Virus record (IMG/VR): IMGVR_UViG_3300036792_000098
Span: 1-28,765 of that record
DNA: 28,765 nt
Origin: a virus
Direction: 5' to 3' (one strand)
The position numbers and the translations under genes are program-made. Shown here in pieces: positions 3,374-22,535 of this stretch. The notes beneath the pieces were generated by a model that was given only the letters and a program-made list of their open reading frames with translations, was not told the DNA's origin and made no database searches. Positions within the stretch are counted from its first letter, which is position 1. Each line of letters opens with the position of its first letter.

Positions 3374-4126
3374 ATGAATGAAATGACACTTCAACCCACA
3401 ACGTCATCGGCCTTGACTGTCATCGAGCGGGCCGCGAAAGATGCGACAATCGACGTTGAAAAGCTTGAGCGGCTGTTCGCGCTTCAGGAGCGATTGTTGG
3501 CACGCCAGGCCGAGGAATCGTTCAACGCCGCCATGAAGGACGTTCAGGCCCAGGAATTGCGAATCGTGCGCGATGCGTCGAATCCGTCAACCAATTCCCG
3601 CTATGCACGCCTCGAATCGCTGAACAAGGCGATTGTTCCGATCTACACGAAAGCTGGATTTTCCATTTCGTTCGGGGCTGGTGATTGTCCGATTCCGGCA
3701 CATTACCGGATTACGGCCATTGTCTCGCACCAGGGTGGCCATTCCCGGCCGTATCAGTGCGACATACCGATTGACGATAAAGGCATGAAGGGAAGCCCGA
3801 ACAAGACAGCTACGCATGCCTTTGGTTCAACCATGAGCTACGGGCGGCGGTATCTGACGCTGCTGATCTTCAATATTGCCCTCGTTGGCGAGGATGACGA
3901 TAAGGCGACCGGCAAAAAATCGGCATCGGGCCGCACGGCAACCGAAGCAACGCGCAATTGGTTTTTGGAGCAGGCAAGGGAAATCCATTTGAAGCTCCAG
4001 GCGTATGCCATCGACAAAGGCATTATCATGCCGAACGAGGGGCTAGATCAATGGCCGCTGGAAAAGGTGCCGACAACCAAAACTGAATTGGCCGCATTGC
4101 GCCGGGAGGTTGAATCCCATGTTTAA
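3374..4126 (+). CDS. erf: ERF-family single-strand annealing recombinase
   Basis: A 250-residue protein of the ERF superfamily (P22 Erf type). After an N-terminal helix rich in Ala/Glu comes the core: NSRYARLESLNKAIVPIYTK, an extended beta region, then the hallmark THAFGSTMSYGRRYLTLLIF followed by an acidic GEDDDKA. These correspond to the family's 'Y...l..v...', 'qa.GSa.TYarRYaL' and 'DDDg' motifs. ERF proteins form rings that anneal complementary single strands in recombination-dependent replication and genome circularisation. The C-terminal ~60 residues look like a separate helical tail. The next gene overlaps by eight bases and is the expected exonuclease partner. Confidence 0.92.
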   Translation: MNEMTLQPTTSSALTVIERAAKDATIDVEKLERLFALQERLLARQAEESFNAAMKDVQAQELRIVRDASNPSTNSRYARLESLNKAIVPIYTKAGFSISFGAGDCPIPAHYRITAIVSHQGGHSRPYQCDIPIDDKGMKGSPNKTATHAFGSTMSYGRRYLTLLIFNIALVGEDDDKATGKKSASGRTATEATRNWFLEQAREIHLKLQAYAIDKGIIMPNEGLDQWPLEKVPTTKTELAALRREVESHV

Positions 4127-5156
4127 AAATTGCCGCATCGTCGCCAAAAACGTCAATTCGGACGCGTACCACGGCCAGGAGACGCCACGGGGCCACGACG
4201 AGTACATCATGTCACCCTCGTCCATTAAAGCGTTCATGGGCTGCCCGTCCCGCTGGATTGGCGGATATGAACCGCCTGAAACAGAAGCAAAGGATTGGGG
4301 AAATCTCGTGGACTGCCTGATTTTGACGCCGAGCCAGTTTAACGACCGTTACGCGGTGCGACCTGACACTTATGCAACGACGCGGATGGAGTGCCCCGTC
4401 TGCAAAAGTATGTCTGAATCGAAATCTTGCCGGAAGTGTAACGAGGAACGCAAGCCGGTGATTGTTGAGCTGCCGTGGAACGGTAACGCCACGAAATGCG
4501 AGGAATGGTTGGCCGGCCAGCGCGACGGCGTGAACGTCATCAGCAAGGACGAGGCGCTGAACGCGCAAGATGCCGTGCGGCGACTTTTGCTGGATGCAAC
4601 CATAGCCGCCTTCATTGCCGCCAGTGACACGCAAGTGCATGTAGCCGGGGAGTGGCACGATAAGGCCACGGGGCTGGTTATTCCCGTCCAATGCCTCATA
4701 GACCTCGTGCCGCGCCTTGATTCCGAATTTAGAAAGCTTTTGGGCGACCTGAAAACGACGCGCAACGCTGGCCAACGGCAATTTGCGCGCTGGTGCTTCA
4801 CCGCTGGTTATCACGTCCAGGCAGCATTTGACCTTGAGATTTACAAAGCTGCCACCGGTGAGGACAGAACAAATTGGGCGTTCATCCTCTCTGAAAACTT
4901 TCCGCCGTTCGAGCCAGGGAAGCGGATGCTGGCTGAAAGTTTCACGGACATTGGCAAGCTCGCTTTTGAGCACGCGCTGGCCAGATACGCCCGATGCCTC
5001 AAAACTGGCGAGTGGCCGAGCTACGACCCTGCGGACGAATTTTCGATGATTGAGGCCGAGCCGTACATGGAATTTGAATCGCTATCGTTAGCTATGGAGG
5101 CCGATCAACAGCAAGAATCCCAAGAATCCGAACCAATTGAGGAAATCTATGCCTGA
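4119..5156 (+). CDS. RecE-like PD-(D/E)XK exonuclease
   Basis: A 345-residue protein of the RecE/exodeoxyribonuclease VIII-like type. It begins its domain with SPSSIKAFMGCPSRWIGGYE (the family's 'Sxsslk.l..cP..y' opening), then KDWGNLVDCLILTP. The catalytic region reads CLIDLVP (D195), then GDLKTTRNA (D210, K212), and GYHVQAAFDLEIY, matching the D...DxK and 'Q...Y' motifs. Four cysteines at ~92, 95, 104 and 107 (CPVC, CRKC) form an inserted zinc-knuckle. It should resect double-stranded ends and leave single strands for the adjacent ERF protein. The ATG is chosen because GGGAGG lies 9 bases upstream; a TTG nine bases earlier is less likely. The Glu/Gln-rich C-terminal tail looks disordered. 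Confidence 0.87.
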   Translation: MFKNCRIVAKNVNSDAYHGQETPRGHDEYIMSPSSIKAFMGCPSRWIGGYEPPETEAKDWGNLVDCLILTPSQFNDRYAVRPDTYATTRMECPVCKSMSESKSCRKCNEERKPVIVELPWNGNATKCEEWLAGQRDGVNVISKDEALNAQDAVRRLLLDATIAAFIAASDTQVHVAGEWHDKATGLVIPVQCLIDLVPRLDSEFRKLLGDLKTTRNAGQRQFARWCFTAGYHVQAAFDLEIYKAATGEDRTNWAFILSENFPPFEPGKRMLAESFTDIGKLAFEHALARYARCLKTGEWPSYDPADEFSMIEAEPYMEFESLSLAMEADQQQESQESEPIEEIYA

Positions 5157-5196
5157 AGAATTATCAAAACCAAACAACCAAAAGGAATCAAAATGA
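5149..5196 (+). CDS. possible 15-codon coupling peptide
   Basis: A small frame, MPEELSKPNNQKESK, starts inside the last codons of the exonuclease gene and ends with a TGA that overlaps the ATG of the next gene. It would carry ribosomes without a gap from one gene to the next. Whether the peptide has its own role cannot be told. It could equally be chance in A-rich sequence. Confidence 0.25.
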   Translation: MPEELSKPNNQKESK

Positions 5197-5426
5197 GTGG
5201 AAGAATCGCAATACCGAATCCGATACAAACAGCAAAATCCGTGCACCTCTGGAACGATGCCCATGCCGTCGGCGCTAAAGTCGAAGTCACCCTTGATGAC
5301 GGCAGCCTGAAGGAAACCACTACCACGTCCGAAGCATGGCTCATGGGCGGTCACACTGCTGTTATCATGCTGGAAGGCATTTCGGGAGCCTATTCACTGG
5401 CACGCGTTCGTCCGTGCAAGCCATAA
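5193..5426 (+). CDS. small hypothetical protein, 77 aa
   Basis: An unrecognised 77-residue protein, probably beta-rich (GAKVEVTLDDGSLKETTTTS, then HTAVIMLEGISGAYSLARV). The pattern looks like a small SH3- or OB-like barrel with an exposed threonine loop. AAAGGAA lies eight bases before the ATG, a usable ribosome site. It sits between recombination genes and a PP-loop enzyme, so expression with the early operon is likely; function is unknown. Confidence 0.6.
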   Translation: MSGRIAIPNPIQTAKSVHLWNDAHAVGAKVEVTLDDGSLKETTTTSEAWLMGGHTAVIMLEGISGAYSLARVRPCKP

Positions 5427-14447: not shown

Positions 14448-16352
14448 ATGCGCCCCGCTGACATCCAATTCGCCCAAACAATCGGCCAACGCTTTTGCCG
14501 TGAGCGCAACACGCAACCGGCAAGCGAATGGATTGAGGAAAACGTGAGCCTGAACGAGCCGAAGATAAAAGGCACGTTCTCATTCAAGGGTCGGGAATAC
14601 CTGCGGCAAATCGTGGACTCGTGGGGCCCGTTGCCTGAGTCGCTTAAGGGCGCTGAAGACTTCATTGGTTGCCTGGCGACCGGAGGCGGAAAAACCATCA
14701 GCACAATCGGCGGTTTAGCCTATCGCATCGCCAACGAGCCCATGCGGGCCCTGGTCGTGAAGCCGACACTGGACGGAGCCGCCGGCGCGCGCAATTATTC
14801 ACGTTCCCGCTTCATCCCGGCATTAGAAGCCAGCGAAGCGACAGAGGAATTGATACCGCGAGGGGCCAAACGGCACAATTTCTCAACAACAAACATGCTG
14901 ATTAATGGCAGCGTGATTGACTTCACCGGCAGTAATTCCGTTGGCCAATTAGCTGAAAATCGCTGCGATGTGACGTTGCAGGACGAAATTGACAAATATC
15001 CGCCGCAACGGGAAAACGCGAAAGAAGCCAACCCGATTTATTTGGCCGACGAGCGGACAAAGAATGTATCCGGCGCGCGCCGGTACAAGTTTTCAACTCC
15101 AACACTGGCTAATGGCGGAATCTGGGAATGGTTTTTGAAGGGCGACCAACGGCGGTATTTTGTGCCGTGTCCGCACTGTCAAAAGAAAGCTGTATTGGCC
15201 TGGTCAAAGCAATTCACTGTCTTCGCCATTCGCGGCGACGAAGCTTTCGTGCGCTGGTCAGACGAGGCGCGGAACGTTGACGGCTCATGGGATCTGGAAA
15301 AGGTCGTAAAAACCGCTCATGCCGTCTGTCCGCATTGCAACGGCAAGATTACCGACGCGCACAAGCCCGAGATGAACGCGCGCGGCGAATGGGTAGCAAC
15401 AGCCAAAGGCGCGCCAGGGATTGTCTCGTGGCACCTGCCGTCCATGTATTCCATCTCTCGGGATTGTAATTTTGGGCAGATGGCCAAAAAGTTCCTGCTC
15501 GCTAAAAAGTCCCTCGATGGCGTTAAAGGCTTCATCAATTCCGATTTAGCCGAGCCCGATGTTTCGCAGGGCATCAGCGTGAATCGTTCCGGCATCGTTG
15601 GCAAGCACATCGAAGTCACAGGCGAATGGCTAAAAATACTATCCCTTGATTATCACGCGCAAGCACCCTACTTCTGGTCCGTAGTTGGCGCGTGGAACGG
15701 AACAGATGAAGCCCACATCGTTGAATACGATTCCTTCAATAACTGGTACGAAATTGACGAAAAGCAGGCCGAGCATAAAATTATCAAGGAAGCGGTCATC
15801 CTCGACGCTGGCCACGAGCAGGCGGAAGTCACGCGGGAATGTTGCCAAGTCAATTCGTTGACTCGCTGCTCGTTGGCTGAAGCTGTGCAGGATGGCGTTC
15901 CCGAGGTCATCGGCTGGCAACCGGCCAAAAGTTTTGGCGGCAATAAGCTTTACCGCGTGGTCGAAAATGAGAGCGTCCTTTATCAGCCATTCCGCAAAGA
16001 CAAATTCATTGATCCGTTCGTCGGCACTGAATTAGCGCGGCAGATGAAAGTCTCGCTTCTGGAATTTCTCGAAAATCCATTCGAGGACATGCTGCAAAAT
16101 ATCATCGATGGTAAAACCGGCCTAAAATGGAGCATCTCGAAAGAGGCTGATACAGATGAATTTCACAAGCAAATGGCCGCGAAGGTTAAAAAGCCGTGGA
16201 AGAAAAACCCGCGAGATTTGCGATGGCAGACGATTCCGAATCGGGATGACCATATTCGCCTATGCTGCGTTTTGCAGCTGGTCCTCGCGGTCAGGCTGCA
16301 ATTGATTAGCTTTCAGTCGTTACAGGTAGTTGAACAAAAGGAACAAAAATGA
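14448..16352 (+). CDS. terminase large subunit (GpA family)
   Basis: A 634-residue protein close to the usual length of lambda gpA-type terminases. ATPase motifs: Walker A ATGGGKT at residues 77-83 and Walker B VTLQDEID with D179/E180. Between the ATPase and nuclease parts are two zinc-finger pairs, CPHC at 241/244 and 294/297, typical of GpA. The nuclease starts at ILSLDYHAQAPYFW (D401), with a second acid at LDAGHEQ (D453). It cuts concatemers and drives DNA into the prohead with ATP. The start directly follows the previous stop, without a clear ribosome site. Its end overlaps the next gene as ATGA. Confidence 0.93.
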   Translation: MRPADIQFAQTIGQRFCRERNTQPASEWIEENVSLNEPKIKGTFSFKGREYLRQIVDSWGPLPESLKGAEDFIGCLATGGGKTISTIGGLAYRIANEPMRALVVKPTLDGAAGARNYSRSRFIPALEASEATEELIPRGAKRHNFSTTNMLINGSVIDFTGSNSVGQLAENRCDVTLQDEIDKYPPQRENAKEANPIYLADERTKNVSGARRYKFSTPTLANGGIWEWFLKGDQRRYFVPCPHCQKKAVLAWSKQFTVFAIRGDEAFVRWSDEARNVDGSWDLEKVVKTAHAVCPHCNGKITDAHKPEMNARGEWVATAKGAPGIVSWHLPSMYSISRDCNFGQMAKKFLLAKKSLDGVKGFINSDLAEPDVSQGISVNRSGIVGKHIEVTGEWLKILSLDYHAQAPYFWSVVGAWNGTDEAHIVEYDSFNNWYEIDEKQAEHKIIKEAVILDAGHEQAEVTRECCQVNSLTRCSLAEAVQDGVPEVIGWQPAKSFGGNKLYRVVENESVLYQPFRKDKFIDPFVGTELARQMKVSLLEFLENPFEDMLQNIIDGKTGLKWSISKEADTDEFHKQMAAKVKKPWKKNPRDLRWQTIPNRDDHIRLCCVLQLVLAVRLQLISFQSLQVVEQKEQK

Positions 16353-17786: not shown

Positions 17787-18251
17787 ATGGATATAGGCAT
17801 CGAAGTTCTTCAGTCCTTTTTAGATGACGCATGGGACGCCGCGCCGAACAGCGGAAATTCCCTTCGTGACCAGCTTCGCGCCTTCGAAAAACAGGTAAAC
17901 GCGCTGTTCAACACTTCCGGAACTCTCGGCTCAGTCGCCAAAAATTCGGCCTCTCAATCCTATCGCGGGCCCGGTCTTGGCTCGTACACCGTTCCGCAGG
18001 TAGCCGCCGCGTGGCGTGTCCTGATAAACCTTTTCGATAAGGAGAAGTGCAGAGCTGACGCAATAAACGCCGCTGGCGTGGCGTGGTTCACTGCGAAATA
18101 TGGCGGATACGAGCAGGACGCGGATCAGGCGGTTTATGATTTCTGCGTCTCGTGGCTTCGGCGGGACTTCACTCAAACGCAAATCGACGTTTCAGAATTG
18201 CGGCTTCAGCCCACGGCGGCAGGCCTGCCAATCCCACTAGAAACATGGTGA
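17787..18251 (+). CDS. hypothetical protein before portal, possible head-tail component
   Basis: A 154-residue protein, helical at the N-terminus (IEVLQSFLDDAWDAAP) and polar in the middle (KNSASQSYRGPGLGSYTVPQ). Its position between terminase and portal is where lambda has gpW, but its length and sequence do not match gpW. The ATG is used; a TTG three codons earlier is an alternative. No Shine-Dalgarno sequence is evident. It ends in TGA that overlaps the portal start. Confidence 0.5.
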   Translation: MDIGIEVLQSFLDDAWDAAPNSGNSLRDQLRAFEKQVNALFNTSGTLGSVAKNSASQSYRGPGLGSYTVPQVAAAWRVLINLFDKEKCRADAINAAGVAWFTAKYGGYEQDADQAVYDFCVSWLRRDFTQTQIDVSELRLQPTAAGLPIPLETW

Positions 18252-19945
18252 TGAAAAGACCCTCGCCATTGTCCATTATTTGCGCTGCTCAAGCTCGGGC
18301 CTGGTTTCCGACCGTCTGCAATGGTATCAAGGGCACCCTAAAAGAGGTCGCCAACAATTTTCCAAAATCCTCCATTGCGAGAAAACTTTATCACGGGTTT
18401 TCCAACTGGTACGAAGCGGGTTGGCCCGTCTGGACGAATGGCGATTTTTCCCACCTTCCGGCACTCGTTCAAGATGCCCGATGGGACCAGAATTTTGTCA
18501 CCCGCCGCGAGATGCTACGGCGAATGCGCTATTGGTCGCAGAATTCCCCGATTGTCGAAGCCTGCCTTTCCGTTGGGGAGCGTTACACCGTTGGCACCGC
18601 TGGATTGCCCGTCTCTTTCTACCCCGGCGATGACGTAAGCGCGGACGCGGACAATTCGTGGTACGACCGCGCCGAGCAAGTGGTTTCCGAATGGCAACAA
18701 TCCTGTGGCTGGAATGGCGAATCAATGGCCGAGCTTCTTAAAATCGGCTATCGCTGTCAAAAAGTTGACGGCGAAATGTTCTATGTAAAAACCCGCAAAG
18801 CGATGCCCCTGGATTTGGGCGACCGCACTTTGCAGGTTCAAAAGCCCTGTTTGCAAATGGTTGAGGCCCACCGCTGCGAATCGCCGTGGAACCGATTTGA
18901 GCAAGAGGGCGATTCATTGGTTGACGGCGTTCAATTCAGCCGATCAACGCAAACCGGTTTAGCGAAGTACAACAAAGTCGGCTACTGGATGCGCGCCGGA
19001 CTGGCTTCGTTTGAGCAAAACGATTCATGGGAGCTCGTTGACAAGGACGATGTTTGGCATCTGTTTAATTCACATCGCGTCAACCAGTTTCGCGGGCTCT
19101 CCGATTTTTATTCCTGCGGCATCACCATTAACAAGCTGGATGACTTGTTGATGATTGAAATGAAGGCGGCGGCCACTCAGTCAAGCCGCGCTGTTCACAT
19201 CGAGAACAATGCAGGTGCGGCGAATCCAATCGACCCACGACTTGACGCCGTAGCGCAATGGCGTGGGACAAAGCCGCCCGCCAACGGCGTTGGCCCGTCC
19301 CCAGAACAGCGCAAGGAGATGTACGAAAAGACTACGGGCGCCTATCTCAATTATTTAAAGACCGGCGAAAAGGTTCATTTCGATACGCCCACCCGACCAA
19401 GCGAGGCAACGGTTACACTGTTCGAACTTTTCATAAACCTGATTTGCGCCGGATCCAAAATGCCGCGCTGCCTCGTCCTTCAAAAGCTCTCCGGCAATTC
19501 CGCACGCTCACAGGGCACGGAAGTACGCGCCGAACTGGATAACGCTGATTTGTATTTCAAGGGAGATTTCCAAAAGTGGAAGGCTTTCGTGCGTGAAGCA
19601 ACTATTTGGTTCATGGAATGGGCCGTCCGCAACGACCCGCGTGTCGCCGACCCGCCGGCCAATTGGCGCAATTGCCTTCACATTCACCAGCCCGAGGCCT
19701 GCTCTGTTGACGTTGGCTACGACACCAACGCCAAGATGATGATGCTCGCGGGCGGCGTCATGGATTACGACATGATTCTCGGGCCGATGGGCACAAACTT
19801 CATGGCCGTGGCAAAGCGGCTCGGGCGTCAACAGGCCTATCTGAAGTCCAAAGGCATCATGGTTTCGCTACCGGCTTTGATGGCGGGGCAAATTCCATTG
19901 AACGGCGAAAAAGCGCAACCAGAACGGGAGGCGGTCGCCGCATGA
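18251..19945 (+). CDS. portal protein (lambda family)
   Basis: A 564-residue protein from the ATG of a TGATG junction; an ATG two codons earlier and a longer frame back to 18152 are less likely. The sequence follows lambda-type portals: RMRYWSQNSPIVEACLSVGE, YTVGTAGLPVSFYPG, then DDVWHLFNSHRVNQFRGLSD. A late segment AGSKMPRCLVLQKLSGNSAR matches the family's 'g.P.....d.s..NySS.R'. Twelve copies would form the ring for DNA entry, the terminase docking site and the tail joint. The stop overlaps the next gene (ATGA), giving the usual portal-protease-capsid order. Confidence 0.9.
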   Translation: MKRPSPLSIICAAQARAWFPTVCNGIKGTLKEVANNFPKSSIARKLYHGFSNWYEAGWPVWTNGDFSHLPALVQDARWDQNFVTRREMLRRMRYWSQNSPIVEACLSVGERYTVGTAGLPVSFYPGDDVSADADNSWYDRAEQVVSEWQQSCGWNGESMAELLKIGYRCQKVDGEMFYVKTRKAMPLDLGDRTLQVQKPCLQMVEAHRCESPWNRFEQEGDSLVDGVQFSRSTQTGLAKYNKVGYWMRAGLASFEQNDSWELVDKDDVWHLFNSHRVNQFRGLSDFYSCGITINKLDDLLMIEMKAAATQSSRAVHIENNAGAANPIDPRLDAVAQWRGTKPPANGVGPSPEQRKEMYEKTTGAYLNYLKTGEKVHFDTPTRPSEATVTLFELFINLICAGSKMPRCLVLQKLSGNSARSQGTEVRAELDNADLYFKGDFQKWKAFVREATIWFMEWAVRNDPRVADPPANWRNCLHIHQPEACSVDVGYDTNAKMMMLAGGVMDYDMILGPMGTNFMAVAKRLGRQQAYLKSKGIMVSLPALMAGQIPLNGEKAQPEREAVAA

Positions 19946-22503
19946 ACAGGGTTCAAAAAATCACTCTCCTGAAATCGTGGAATATCGCCATTCCAGCGAA
20001 TAGCACGAATGAGCAATTGGATGCTCTAATTTCGCAGCATCGCAAGGAAAAACGGTCACTCAATTTCAAAGGTGGTTCAATGACCGTCACTTTCGACAAG
20101 GCCGATGAAACGCCGGTTGAATTGATGATTTATGAGGACATTGGCGACGACCCTTGGAGCGCGGGCGGATTTACCGCCAAAGATTTTGTCGATGCGCTGA
20201 AGGACATCAAGTCAACCCGCGCTTTGGATATTCGAATCAATTCTGCGGGCGGGTCCGTGTGGGAGGGGCTCGCAATCAAAACCAGAATTGACGAATGGAA
20301 GGGTAAAAAGACCGCCTCAATTGATGGCATGGCCGCTTCCGTCGCCTCGTGGCTTCCAATGTCCGTTGATGAAATCCGCGCGCCAAAACATTCCCAAATG
20401 TTCATTCACGATGCCTGGGGGATGACGATGGGCAATGCGGCTGACATGCGCACATCGGCCAATGAGCTTGATAAAACCTCCGACCAAATCGCGGAAATGT
20501 ATGCCAACCGTACCGGCATGTCTCAAACCGAATGCCGCGATCTGATGAAAACCGGAACGCTCATGACCGGTGAAGAAGCTTTGAAGATGGGATTCATCGA
20601 CCGCCTCACGGATGACGAGCCGGTTTCCAATTTCACAGAGAAACAAATTTCCAACATGCGGTCAAAACTGGCCGTTCTCAATTCGATAAAGCCCGCTCAA
20701 CAGGGCGGCACAACCAAAAACCAAACAAACAAAATGAACAGAAAACAGAAAATCGCCCTGTTAAATAAATTGGGCGTGTCGGTATCCAAAAACGCGCACG
20801 AGAGTGTCGTTGACGCGCTTCTCACAACGGTGCGAAACAGTTTCCCACAAAACGCCGCCAAATTCAAAAACGGCAAGGACGGCGATCACTCCGAAGATTG
20901 CGATTGCGCCGATTGCGCCATGAAGAACGCGCCAGAACCGGACGCGGAAGATCCTGACGCCGATGCGGACGATGGCGCGCCGGGCAAAGAGGGCGAATTG
21001 TTCAAGGCGGCTACGGAAAACAAGGCCACGCTCAAGCTGATGAAGAATTTCCTCGAACGGCAGCGGAACAAAACCATTGAGGAAAAAATGATGAAATACG
21101 TCGAGGAAGGCCGCATTGGCGGAAACGATGTATCGGACTGGATGAATTTGGCCATCGCTGCTACCGAGGACGCTAAAGGCAACAACCCGATTTTGAATCA
21201 ACTCGAAAAGCTACCAGTCCGCCTGCCGGGCCGCGACGCACTCAATCTCGAAGTCGTCAGCGATAACGAAGCTGAAACAATCCCAGGCCTTGAGCGCATT
21301 TGCAACAACCTCCGCGCTCCGCAGAATTATTACAATCGAAATGGCACGAAGGCCGAGAACCTGCACGAGCGCATGGTCATCGCTCAGAACTCGAAGCAGA
21401 TTGCCCGACATATCGGACGCCTGAAACAGTTCGACAAAACCGGGGAATTGATTGGGCCTATCCGTCAAGCATGGGACAAATTTGAGATGGGAAGTCCGCG
21501 CAATGCCAATACGATGACTACCGGGCTTCTGCGCCAGGTCATTCTCTCTGAAATCATGCGCGCATTCCGCCGCGCATTTACTCCGCTGACGTATTTCGCT
21601 CACAACTTCGGAAACGTGCCACTTGAAGGTACTGACGTGGTGCAAGTGCCGTATTATCCGTTGGCGACTCAGCAATCCACCGAATTCCTGTACGCCAATG
21701 GCTACCAGATCACGGCCAACGCGCAAACGCTGTCAAAAAACATAACCGTTGGCGGCATCGGAAACGGCGTTGCGACCCCCGGCAGTGGCCGAAAATATCA
21801 GCCGTTACAGTTCACGGCTTACGAAATCCGTCGCCAGCCTTGGTTGGATATTCAAAAACTGTCTGTGATGGCCGGTGAGCAATTGGCGCTGGACGTTCGC
21901 GCGGACATTATTGGAACTCAAATCTGTGCGGCCAATTTCGGAAACGCGGTATGGACCGGCCAACCCGGCGGATTTGACCACACCATTATCGGCGGCACGC
22001 TCATGCTCGCGGCTAATAACGCATTCTGGCCGAAACGTGGCCGGAACGTTGTTGTCGGGACGGCATACCATGCGAATGCTTCAATTGATAATGGGCTCTA
22101 TCCGTATCTCTACTCCGGCAGCACTGCCATTCTCGATCAGGCTGAAATCAAAAACAAATACCGCTTCGAGAACATCACGGAAGACCCGATTTTGCCTATT
22201 GGCAACTATATCCAAGGCGGTTCTGGGAATGTCGTACCCGGCTTGGACCCGTACCTCGCTGGCTATATGTGCTGGCCTTCGGCGGTACTGATTGCGACTG
22301 CGCCAATCATGCCATCCCCCGGCGTCTTGAAAAAGTTGCTCGCCTACGAACAAATCACAGACGACCAAACCGATCTGACATTTTCCTATCGGTTCATGGG
22401 CGCCGAACTCAATGACGCCGACCAGGAAGTTATTGAATCGGCCTACGGTTCTGGGCCCGGTGAATTGAAGGCGCTGTTCCGGCTCGCATCGCAGGGCAAT
22501 TAA
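19942..22503 (+). CDS. fused head maturation protease - linker - major capsid protein
   Basis: One 853-codon frame. Residues 1-45 are an SAP/HeH-like helix pair (LLKSWNIAIPANSTNEQLDA). Residues ~55-235 are an S14/ClpP-type protease: RINSAGGSVWEGLAIKTRID, DGMAASVASW (nucleophile S133), MFIHDAWG (H156) and EEALKMGFIDRL. Where ClpP has D185 the aligned residue seems to be Gly (MKTGTLMTGEEA). Around residues 265-298 MNRKQKIALLNKLGVSVS repeats the N-terminal motif. An acidic Asp/Ala-rich segment (320-350) looks like scaffold, then from ~420 comes the capsid part (YFAHNFGNVPLEGTDVVQVP, MAGEQLALDVRADIIGTQ). GGGAGG lies before the start. Normally these are two or three genes. Whether the chain is processed or internally started is unknown. 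Confidence 0.8.
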   Translation: MNRVQKITLLKSWNIAIPANSTNEQLDALISQHRKEKRSLNFKGGSMTVTFDKADETPVELMIYEDIGDDPWSAGGFTAKDFVDALKDIKSTRALDIRINSAGGSVWEGLAIKTRIDEWKGKKTASIDGMAASVASWLPMSVDEIRAPKHSQMFIHDAWGMTMGNAADMRTSANELDKTSDQIAEMYANRTGMSQTECRDLMKTGTLMTGEEALKMGFIDRLTDDEPVSNFTEKQISNMRSKLAVLNSIKPAQQGGTTKNQTNKMNRKQKIALLNKLGVSVSKNAHESVVDALLTTVRNSFPQNAAKFKNGKDGDHSEDCDCADCAMKNAPEPDAEDPDADADDGAPGKEGELFKAATENKATLKLMKNFLERQRNKTIEEKMMKYVEEGRIGGNDVSDWMNLAIAATEDAKGNNPILNQLEKLPVRLPGRDALNLEVVSDNEAETIPGLERICNNLRAPQNYYNRNGTKAENLHERMVIAQNSKQIARHIGRLKQFDKTGELIGPIRQAWDKFEMGSPRNANTMTTGLLRQVILSEIMRAFRRAFTPLTYFAHNFGNVPLEGTDVVQVPYYPLATQQSTEFLYANGYQITANAQTLSKNITVGGIGNGVATPGSGRKYQPLQFTAYEIRRQPWLDIQKLSVMAGEQLALDVRADIIGTQICAANFGNAVWTGQPGGFDHTIIGGTLMLAANNAFWPKRGRNVVVGTAYHANASIDNGLYPYLYSGSTAILDQAEIKNKYRFENITEDPILPIGNYIQGGSGNVVPGLDPYLAGYMCWPSAVLIATAPIMPSPGVLKKLLAYEQITDDQTDLTFSYRFMGAELNDADQEVIESAYGSGPGELKALFRLASQGN

Positions 22504-22512
22504 CATCACTTG

Positions 22513-22525
22513 GCCGCTAGGCGGC
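22513..22525 (+). other. GC-rich hairpin after the capsid gene
   Basis: GCCGC-TAG-GCGGC makes a five-pair stem with a three-base loop, ten bases after the capsid stop and ahead of the next ATG. There is no T-run, so it is not a standard terminator. It could stabilise the capsid mRNA end or act as a partial attenuator. It is short and might be chance. Confidence 0.3.
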
Positions 22526-22535
22526 ACAACAACAC

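Follow-up and report, generated by a model that had tools for sequence, protein, structure and literature searches.

A candidate second translation start inside a protease-scaffold-capsid fusion gene of an uncultivated virus

Fused head genes and nested scaffold starts

Every HK97-type head has to take in a little protease alongside the hundreds of capsid subunits that form its shell, and fused genes such as that of Gifsy-2 seemed to be an exception that imposes a 1:1 ratio. A tripartite protease-scaffold-capsid gene is established for Gifsy-2, to judge by a title cited in two papers (PMC8538268, PMC3121763), and for MD8, where it is gp5 (PMC8508860). Described here is a gene of this kind from the uncultivated virus record IMGVR_UViG_3300036792_000098, all 28,765 bases of which form the stretch analysed (the window). 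The gene is a single open reading frame (ORF) of 853 codons, and sequence comparisons suggest that it contains a second translation start, at an in-frame ATG at position 20734.

Gifsy-2 and its kin (Fels-1, mEp460 and MD8 gp5) resemble the window in having an S14 protease, a scaffold region and an HK97-type capsid in one frame, located right after the portal gene. They differ in lacking a repeated module and in possessing a leader of the Shine-Dalgarno (SD) type instead of an A-rich one. When the window and Gifsy-2 capsids were compared by hhalign, no relation was detectable (probability 0.3%, E 0.21) and only the fold type was held in common, so the window represents a separate lineage of the fused gene.

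Internal starts are familiar from scaffold genes. In Mu and PaMx73, in-frame scaffold starts lie inside the protease gene, and that of PaMx73 is at a Val codon preceded by a Shine-Dalgarno sequence (PMC4378225). Phage lambda has a nested C/nu3 start, according to the annotation of its record. The in-frame internal starts of lambda C/Nu3 and Mu gpI/scaffold give scaffold without protease, as is proposed for the window; in both phages, however, the capsid is a separate gene, whereas in the window it belongs to both of the inferred products. In herpesviruses, UL26.5 is nested in frame within UL26 and provides scaffold alone besides the protease-scaffold form (PMC12474303). These viruses differ from the window in that their capsid protein is separate and internal translation starts on one message are not shown to be the source of their two products. 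The scaffold-capsid fusion of HK97 and T5 (delta domain) resembles the short product inferred for the window, although the HK97 protease is encoded by a separate gene. Finally, the capsid-protease fusions of actinophages and of Rhodobacter phage RcBaka join protease and capsid in one gene, as in the window, but the N-terminal part of the RcBaka protein does not look S14-like by eye and carries no repeated module. The RcBaka gene (L031:1026-3068; relatives are designated here by L numbers), annotated as a capsid-protease fusion, has an in-frame Met214 after AGGA that is a candidate internal start. A literature search, whose coverage left the original Gifsy-2 paper outside, retrieved no text that describes internal starts for genes fusing protease and capsid.

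A conserved start codon behind an A-rich leader

The fusion itself is ordinary in kind; the real finding, as far as sequence comparison can establish it, is the hidden second start and its conservation at the nucleotide level across deep divergence. It is proposed, with a probability of roughly 0.8, that the ORF is a dual-start head gene, which would yield a full-length protease-scaffold-capsid protein together with an internally started scaffold-capsid protein. Genes that fuse protease, scaffold and capsid were already known (Gifsy-2, MD8), as were internal starts for the scaffold (Mu, herpesvirus UL26.5); the window lineage appears to have both.

The initial annotation had pointed out that the opening of the ORF seems to recur within it, behind an A-rich leader, and this proved correct. 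The 35-residue opening module (MNRVQKITLL...) reappears from residue 265, precisely at ATG 20734. A chance repeat was ruled out by the Smith-Waterman score of the two copies, which was 61, whereas 5000 shuffles reached no more than 46, and by a profile-profile match between six first copies and 23 second copies (99% probability, E 3e-18).

The junction was then followed through a set of 25 fused genes, namely the window and 24 relatives from IMG/VR scans, all mutually less than 75% identical and ranging down to about 30%. The start codon at the junction is kept in every one of them, as ATG in 23 and as GTG in two. Both GTG cases replace Met by Val, and among the Val codons GTG alone is a common gene start. 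Codon choice around this position was examined with a silent-site test, in which the expectation took account of the encoded amino acids and of the codon usage of the gene concerned. Over the ten codons upstream of the start, the first 16 sequences contained 83 codons ending in A (28.9 ± 4.3 expected) and 27 ending in G or T (77 ± 6 expected). Along the whole gene, in all 25, silent A enrichment formed a single peak at the internal Met, with z values of 12.8 for codons -10 to -1 and 13.3 for codons -5 to 4, and of no more than 3.9 elsewhere. The peak was still evident in the 15 sequences less than 60% identical (z 9.5 vs 3.8 elsewhere) and in the ten less than 50% identical (z 7.3 vs 3.3 elsewhere), and it was weaker in the ten sequences found after the test had been designed, taken alone (z 5.6 and 7.0; best elsewhere 4.1). 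Silent sites around the internal ATG are, by this comparison of coding sequences, under selection.

Other properties of the site are also those of a start region. Across the 25 genes, the median rank of mRNA folding in the 51 bases around the internal start falls in the weakest 1% of the gene. The A content of the leader is 0.52, as compared with 0.25 at other in-frame Mets, and an SD-like motif precedes the internal start in 9 of 25 genes versus 54 of 515 other in-frame Mets (p 0.001). Moreover, one relative, L058, is split at this very place. Its S14 protease gene (3911-5368) ends, AAAACAAAAACAAAAAAACAAGGTAAACATAT follows, and an ATG then opens MRKKMEALLNSWQV..., the beginning of a second gene that consists of module, scaffold and capsid and has its own ATG at the motif homologous to residue 265. 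This gene start is preceded by an A-rich leader of the same style as those inside the fusions. It aligns equally well with the second of the tandem module copies present in L056 and L059, and falls at a module start either way. The conserved start codon, the silent-site selection and the L058 gene start all agree with the earlier suggestion that the start region of a second gene was retained inside the fusion; either the split or the fused form may be ancestral.

Several observations weigh against an internal start. In L004, L046 and L051, the mRNA around the site is not unusually unstructured, and the window's own internal leader lacks a Shine-Dalgarno motif, although the A-rich leaders of the window genes at 441, 23222 and 25879 lack one too. 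In the annotated Nu3 start of lambda, used as a positive control, the A-rich leader and the weak folding are both missing, and the signature is therefore not universal. The single split example, L058, could also be the result of a later fission.

Proposed mechanism and rival explanations

According to the dual-start proposal, ribosomes ending the portal gene would start the full-length protein on the overlapping ATGA, the four nucleotides shared by the portal TGA stop and the fusion ATG. Portal stop and fusion start overlap by 1 or 4 nt in 16 of the 25 fused loci. Such overlaps are usually a sign of translational coupling, and coupling would here link the output of the protease-carrying form to that of the portal protein, which is present in few copies. 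Other ribosomes would start independently at ATG 20734, behind the A-rich, unstructured leader, and make module-scaffold-capsid without protease. The short product would presumably be made and be the more abundant of the two. Since both proteins have the scaffold and shell parts in common, they would co-assemble; minority full-length subunits would thereby bring protease inside the shell of the procapsid. The protease would then remove the scaffold and itself, probably cutting just before the NANT motif at residue ~521. The capsid genes of the unfused relatives L060, L062 and L108 begin at M.NTI, matching window residues 521-525 (NANTM), and the maturation cut is thus predicted just upstream of residue 521, where it would leave a capsid protein of 36 kDa. 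A surplus of capsid from an internal start, on the pattern of lambda C/Nu3, had been offered as one option in the initial annotation, and the start codon kept in all 25 genes and the silent-site selection point the same way.

Could the gene instead yield a single chain of 853 residues, with its parts separated by proteolysis only, one protease per shell subunit and an A-rich stretch that merely encodes a flexible linker? The frame runs uninterrupted through every intact relative, and for Gifsy-2, which is the nearest case described so far, the title cited in PMC8538268 and PMC3121763 speaks of a single tripartite gene. Still, this alternative is unlikely: a flexible linker leaves the silent-site A enrichment, the GTG codons and the start of the split gene unexplained, and a single chain would place one protease part of ~29 kDa per subunit within the shell. 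The related idea that one chain fixes the ratio of protease, scaffold and shell is disfavoured, since the products of a conserved internal start would upset a 1:1:1 ratio. A-rich single-stranded RNA would also suit RNase cleavage or slippage, and it is conceivable that the site is some such mRNA feature, which lowers the amount of protease-containing products. This explanation is improbable: it gives no reason to expect that the start codon is conserved, that GTG appears where Met is lost, that SD-like motifs are enriched or that a gene starts there in L058, and the window leader is without a long homopolymer run. That the internal ATG is a fossil of gene fusion, no longer used, would be in keeping with the existence of a split relative, but silent-site selection is strong among relatives less than 50% identical, where a fossil would have decayed, and the fossil explanation is accordingly very improbable.

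A dual-start design may extend beyond the window lineage. Ten diverse Gifsy-2-type genes were found to possess a Met just after the protease (Met221 in Gifsy-2) with an SD-like motif 9-10 nt upstream in 10/10, while of nine other conserved Mets in these genes, eight are without an SD-like motif and one has it in 3/10. The motif at the post-protease Met suggests that the design appears in both lineages. It is somewhat likely that fused protease-scaffold-capsid genes are dual-start in general and that, in at least two capsid lineages without detectable sequence relation (the Gifsy-2 type and the window), the tripartite protein is the rarer form, which carries the protease, and heads are built mainly from the internally started scaffold-capsid. 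If so, the apparent exception of a 1:1 ratio vanishes, and the shell protein itself comes under the nested arrangement of protease and scaffold seen in Mu, lambda and herpesviruses.

Domains, relatives and genomic setting

The features of the locus are collected in Table 1.

Table 1. Head-gene features in the window, with candidate and inferred elements named as such.
Feature	Position	Strand	Evidence
Terminase large subunit, same head module	14448..16352	+	PF05876 E 2e-36
Portal protein gene	18152..19945	+	PF05136 E 3e-30
Protease-scaffold-capsid fusion ORF (product 1), 853 amino acids, 93.8 kDa	19942..22503	+	
First helix-extended-helix module copy, residues 1-35; lineage-specific	19942..20046	+	present in some relatives only
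S14/ClpP-type head maturation protease domain, about residues 45-235	20074..20646	+	PF00574; phrog_2976/94/133; S133, H156 conserved
A-rich leader of candidate internal start, in codons of K/N/Q/T-rich linker	20704..20733	+	silent-site A enrichment z 12-13, weakest local folding
Inferred second product: module + scaffold + capsid, 589 amino acids, 64.6 kDa	20734..22503	+	start codon 25/25; L058 gene begins at motif
Second module copy, residues 265-300	20734..20841	+	repeat alignment; two helices, predicted local distance difference test (pLDDT) 84-91
Acidic linker, residues 301-350, isoelectric point 4.1, with HxxxCxCxxC motif	20842..20991	+	
Helical scaffold-like region, residues 351-520	20992..21501	+	long helices in model; phrog_2976 match to residue 423
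HK97-fold major capsid domain, residues 521-853	21502..22500	+	structure model; unfused L060, L062, L108 start at homologous motif

The initial annotation had read the ORF as an S14-like protease with S133 and H156, a scaffold-like segment and a capsid, and this reading is borne out. The frame is open across all 853 codons; a hidden stop or sequencing error was ruled out, as the 24 relatives are open across the same junctions. The PF00574 (Clp protease) match covers residues 86-224 (E 7e-25), and the phrog_2976 match (E 9e-62) continues beyond the protease. S133 and H156 are invariant in the relatives and align with the ClpP Ser and His. The catalytic Asp of ClpP was not found at the aligned position, which is occupied by Gly203 and is variable among relatives. 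Residues 351-520 are probably scaffold, given the long helices predicted after the acidic linker. The HxxxCxCxxC-like motif of that linker (e.g., DHSEDCDCADC) lies at 20881-20919 (residues ~314-326) and could bind metal; it is conserved in L002, L003, L010, L012, L013, L014, L015 and L044 and absent in more distant relatives.

The capsid part (residues ~525-853) gave no sequence match in Pfam or PHROGs, retrieved nothing from phage records as a direct sequence query and had one weak match in the PDB (8zdh, E 0.04). Residues 265-853, modelled with 37 sequences, gave a good model (mean pLDDT 77.5); a full-length model from seven sequences was too poor to be used (pLDDT 42). Foldseek matched the modelled capsid part to the major capsid protein of mycobacteriophage Douge (E 4e-10), and VIA aligned it with the HRP29 procapsid 8em6 (Z 16.8, root-mean-square deviation 3.6, 264 residues). 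By these structural comparisons, the C-terminal part of the model is an HK97-fold capsid.

The repeated module is predicted to form two helices with an extended link. This much fits the SAP/HeH label that had been given to it, but the Pfam SAP and HeH models match 0/23 copies. The junction copy occurs in nearly all fused relatives, and the N-terminal copy is found in the window, L002, L003, L004/L006, L013 and L056/L057 and is absent from most others. L020, L067 and L069 have no module, yet they keep Met at the junction. Where the N-terminal copy is present, both inferred products open with the same module. The delivery-tag role formerly suggested for it finds no support, given the lack of SAP or HeH profile matches and the absence of the N-terminal copy from most relatives; the module would instead mark the N-terminus of translation products. 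Two tandem junction copies, the first beginning at GTG, were observed in L056 (5338-5445) and L059 (5317-5424); as L056 has an N-terminal copy too, it carries three in one gene.

A survey of split and fused forms, proposed at the outset, yielded 24 fused relatives, one split (L058) and several unfused. In all fused relatives, protease and capsid share one frame. L007 (4624-7166), near-identical to the intact L002, has lost one base downstream of the internal start, so that its frame is broken; the deletion may be an error of assembly or a genuine lesion. The separate protease of L058 has a C-terminal extension of ~270 residues, within which two stretches resemble each other (QLVIQNQLLNxNENHDExGxF); the extension is perhaps this protease's own route into the head. 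The unfused members of the capsid family (L049, L060, L061, L062, L064 and L108) have a protease that is S49-like as judged by eye, with the coiled-coil scaffold and the capsid each encoded separately. A search of cellular genomes did not find the window family; the sole cellular relatives found were distant, unfused ones of the capsid, in a Verrucomicrobiaceae metagenome-assembled genome and in 25 of 388 genomes of its phylum. A genome of this phylum also holds a 642-codon frame (L125:865-2793), in which an N-terminal part resembling a Mu-type protease/scaffold is joined to a distant relative of the window capsid. The junction has an in-frame Met188, and the frame is possibly another independent fusion.

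The gene order of the window (terminase large subunit, portal, fusion) is that of a lambda-like head module. Between the fusion and the next gene, at 22512-22535, lies a short inverted repeat (gccgc...gcggc) that possibly forms a weak hairpin, and a terminator is annotated at the matching place, 3' of the fusion gene, in some Gifsy-2-type records.

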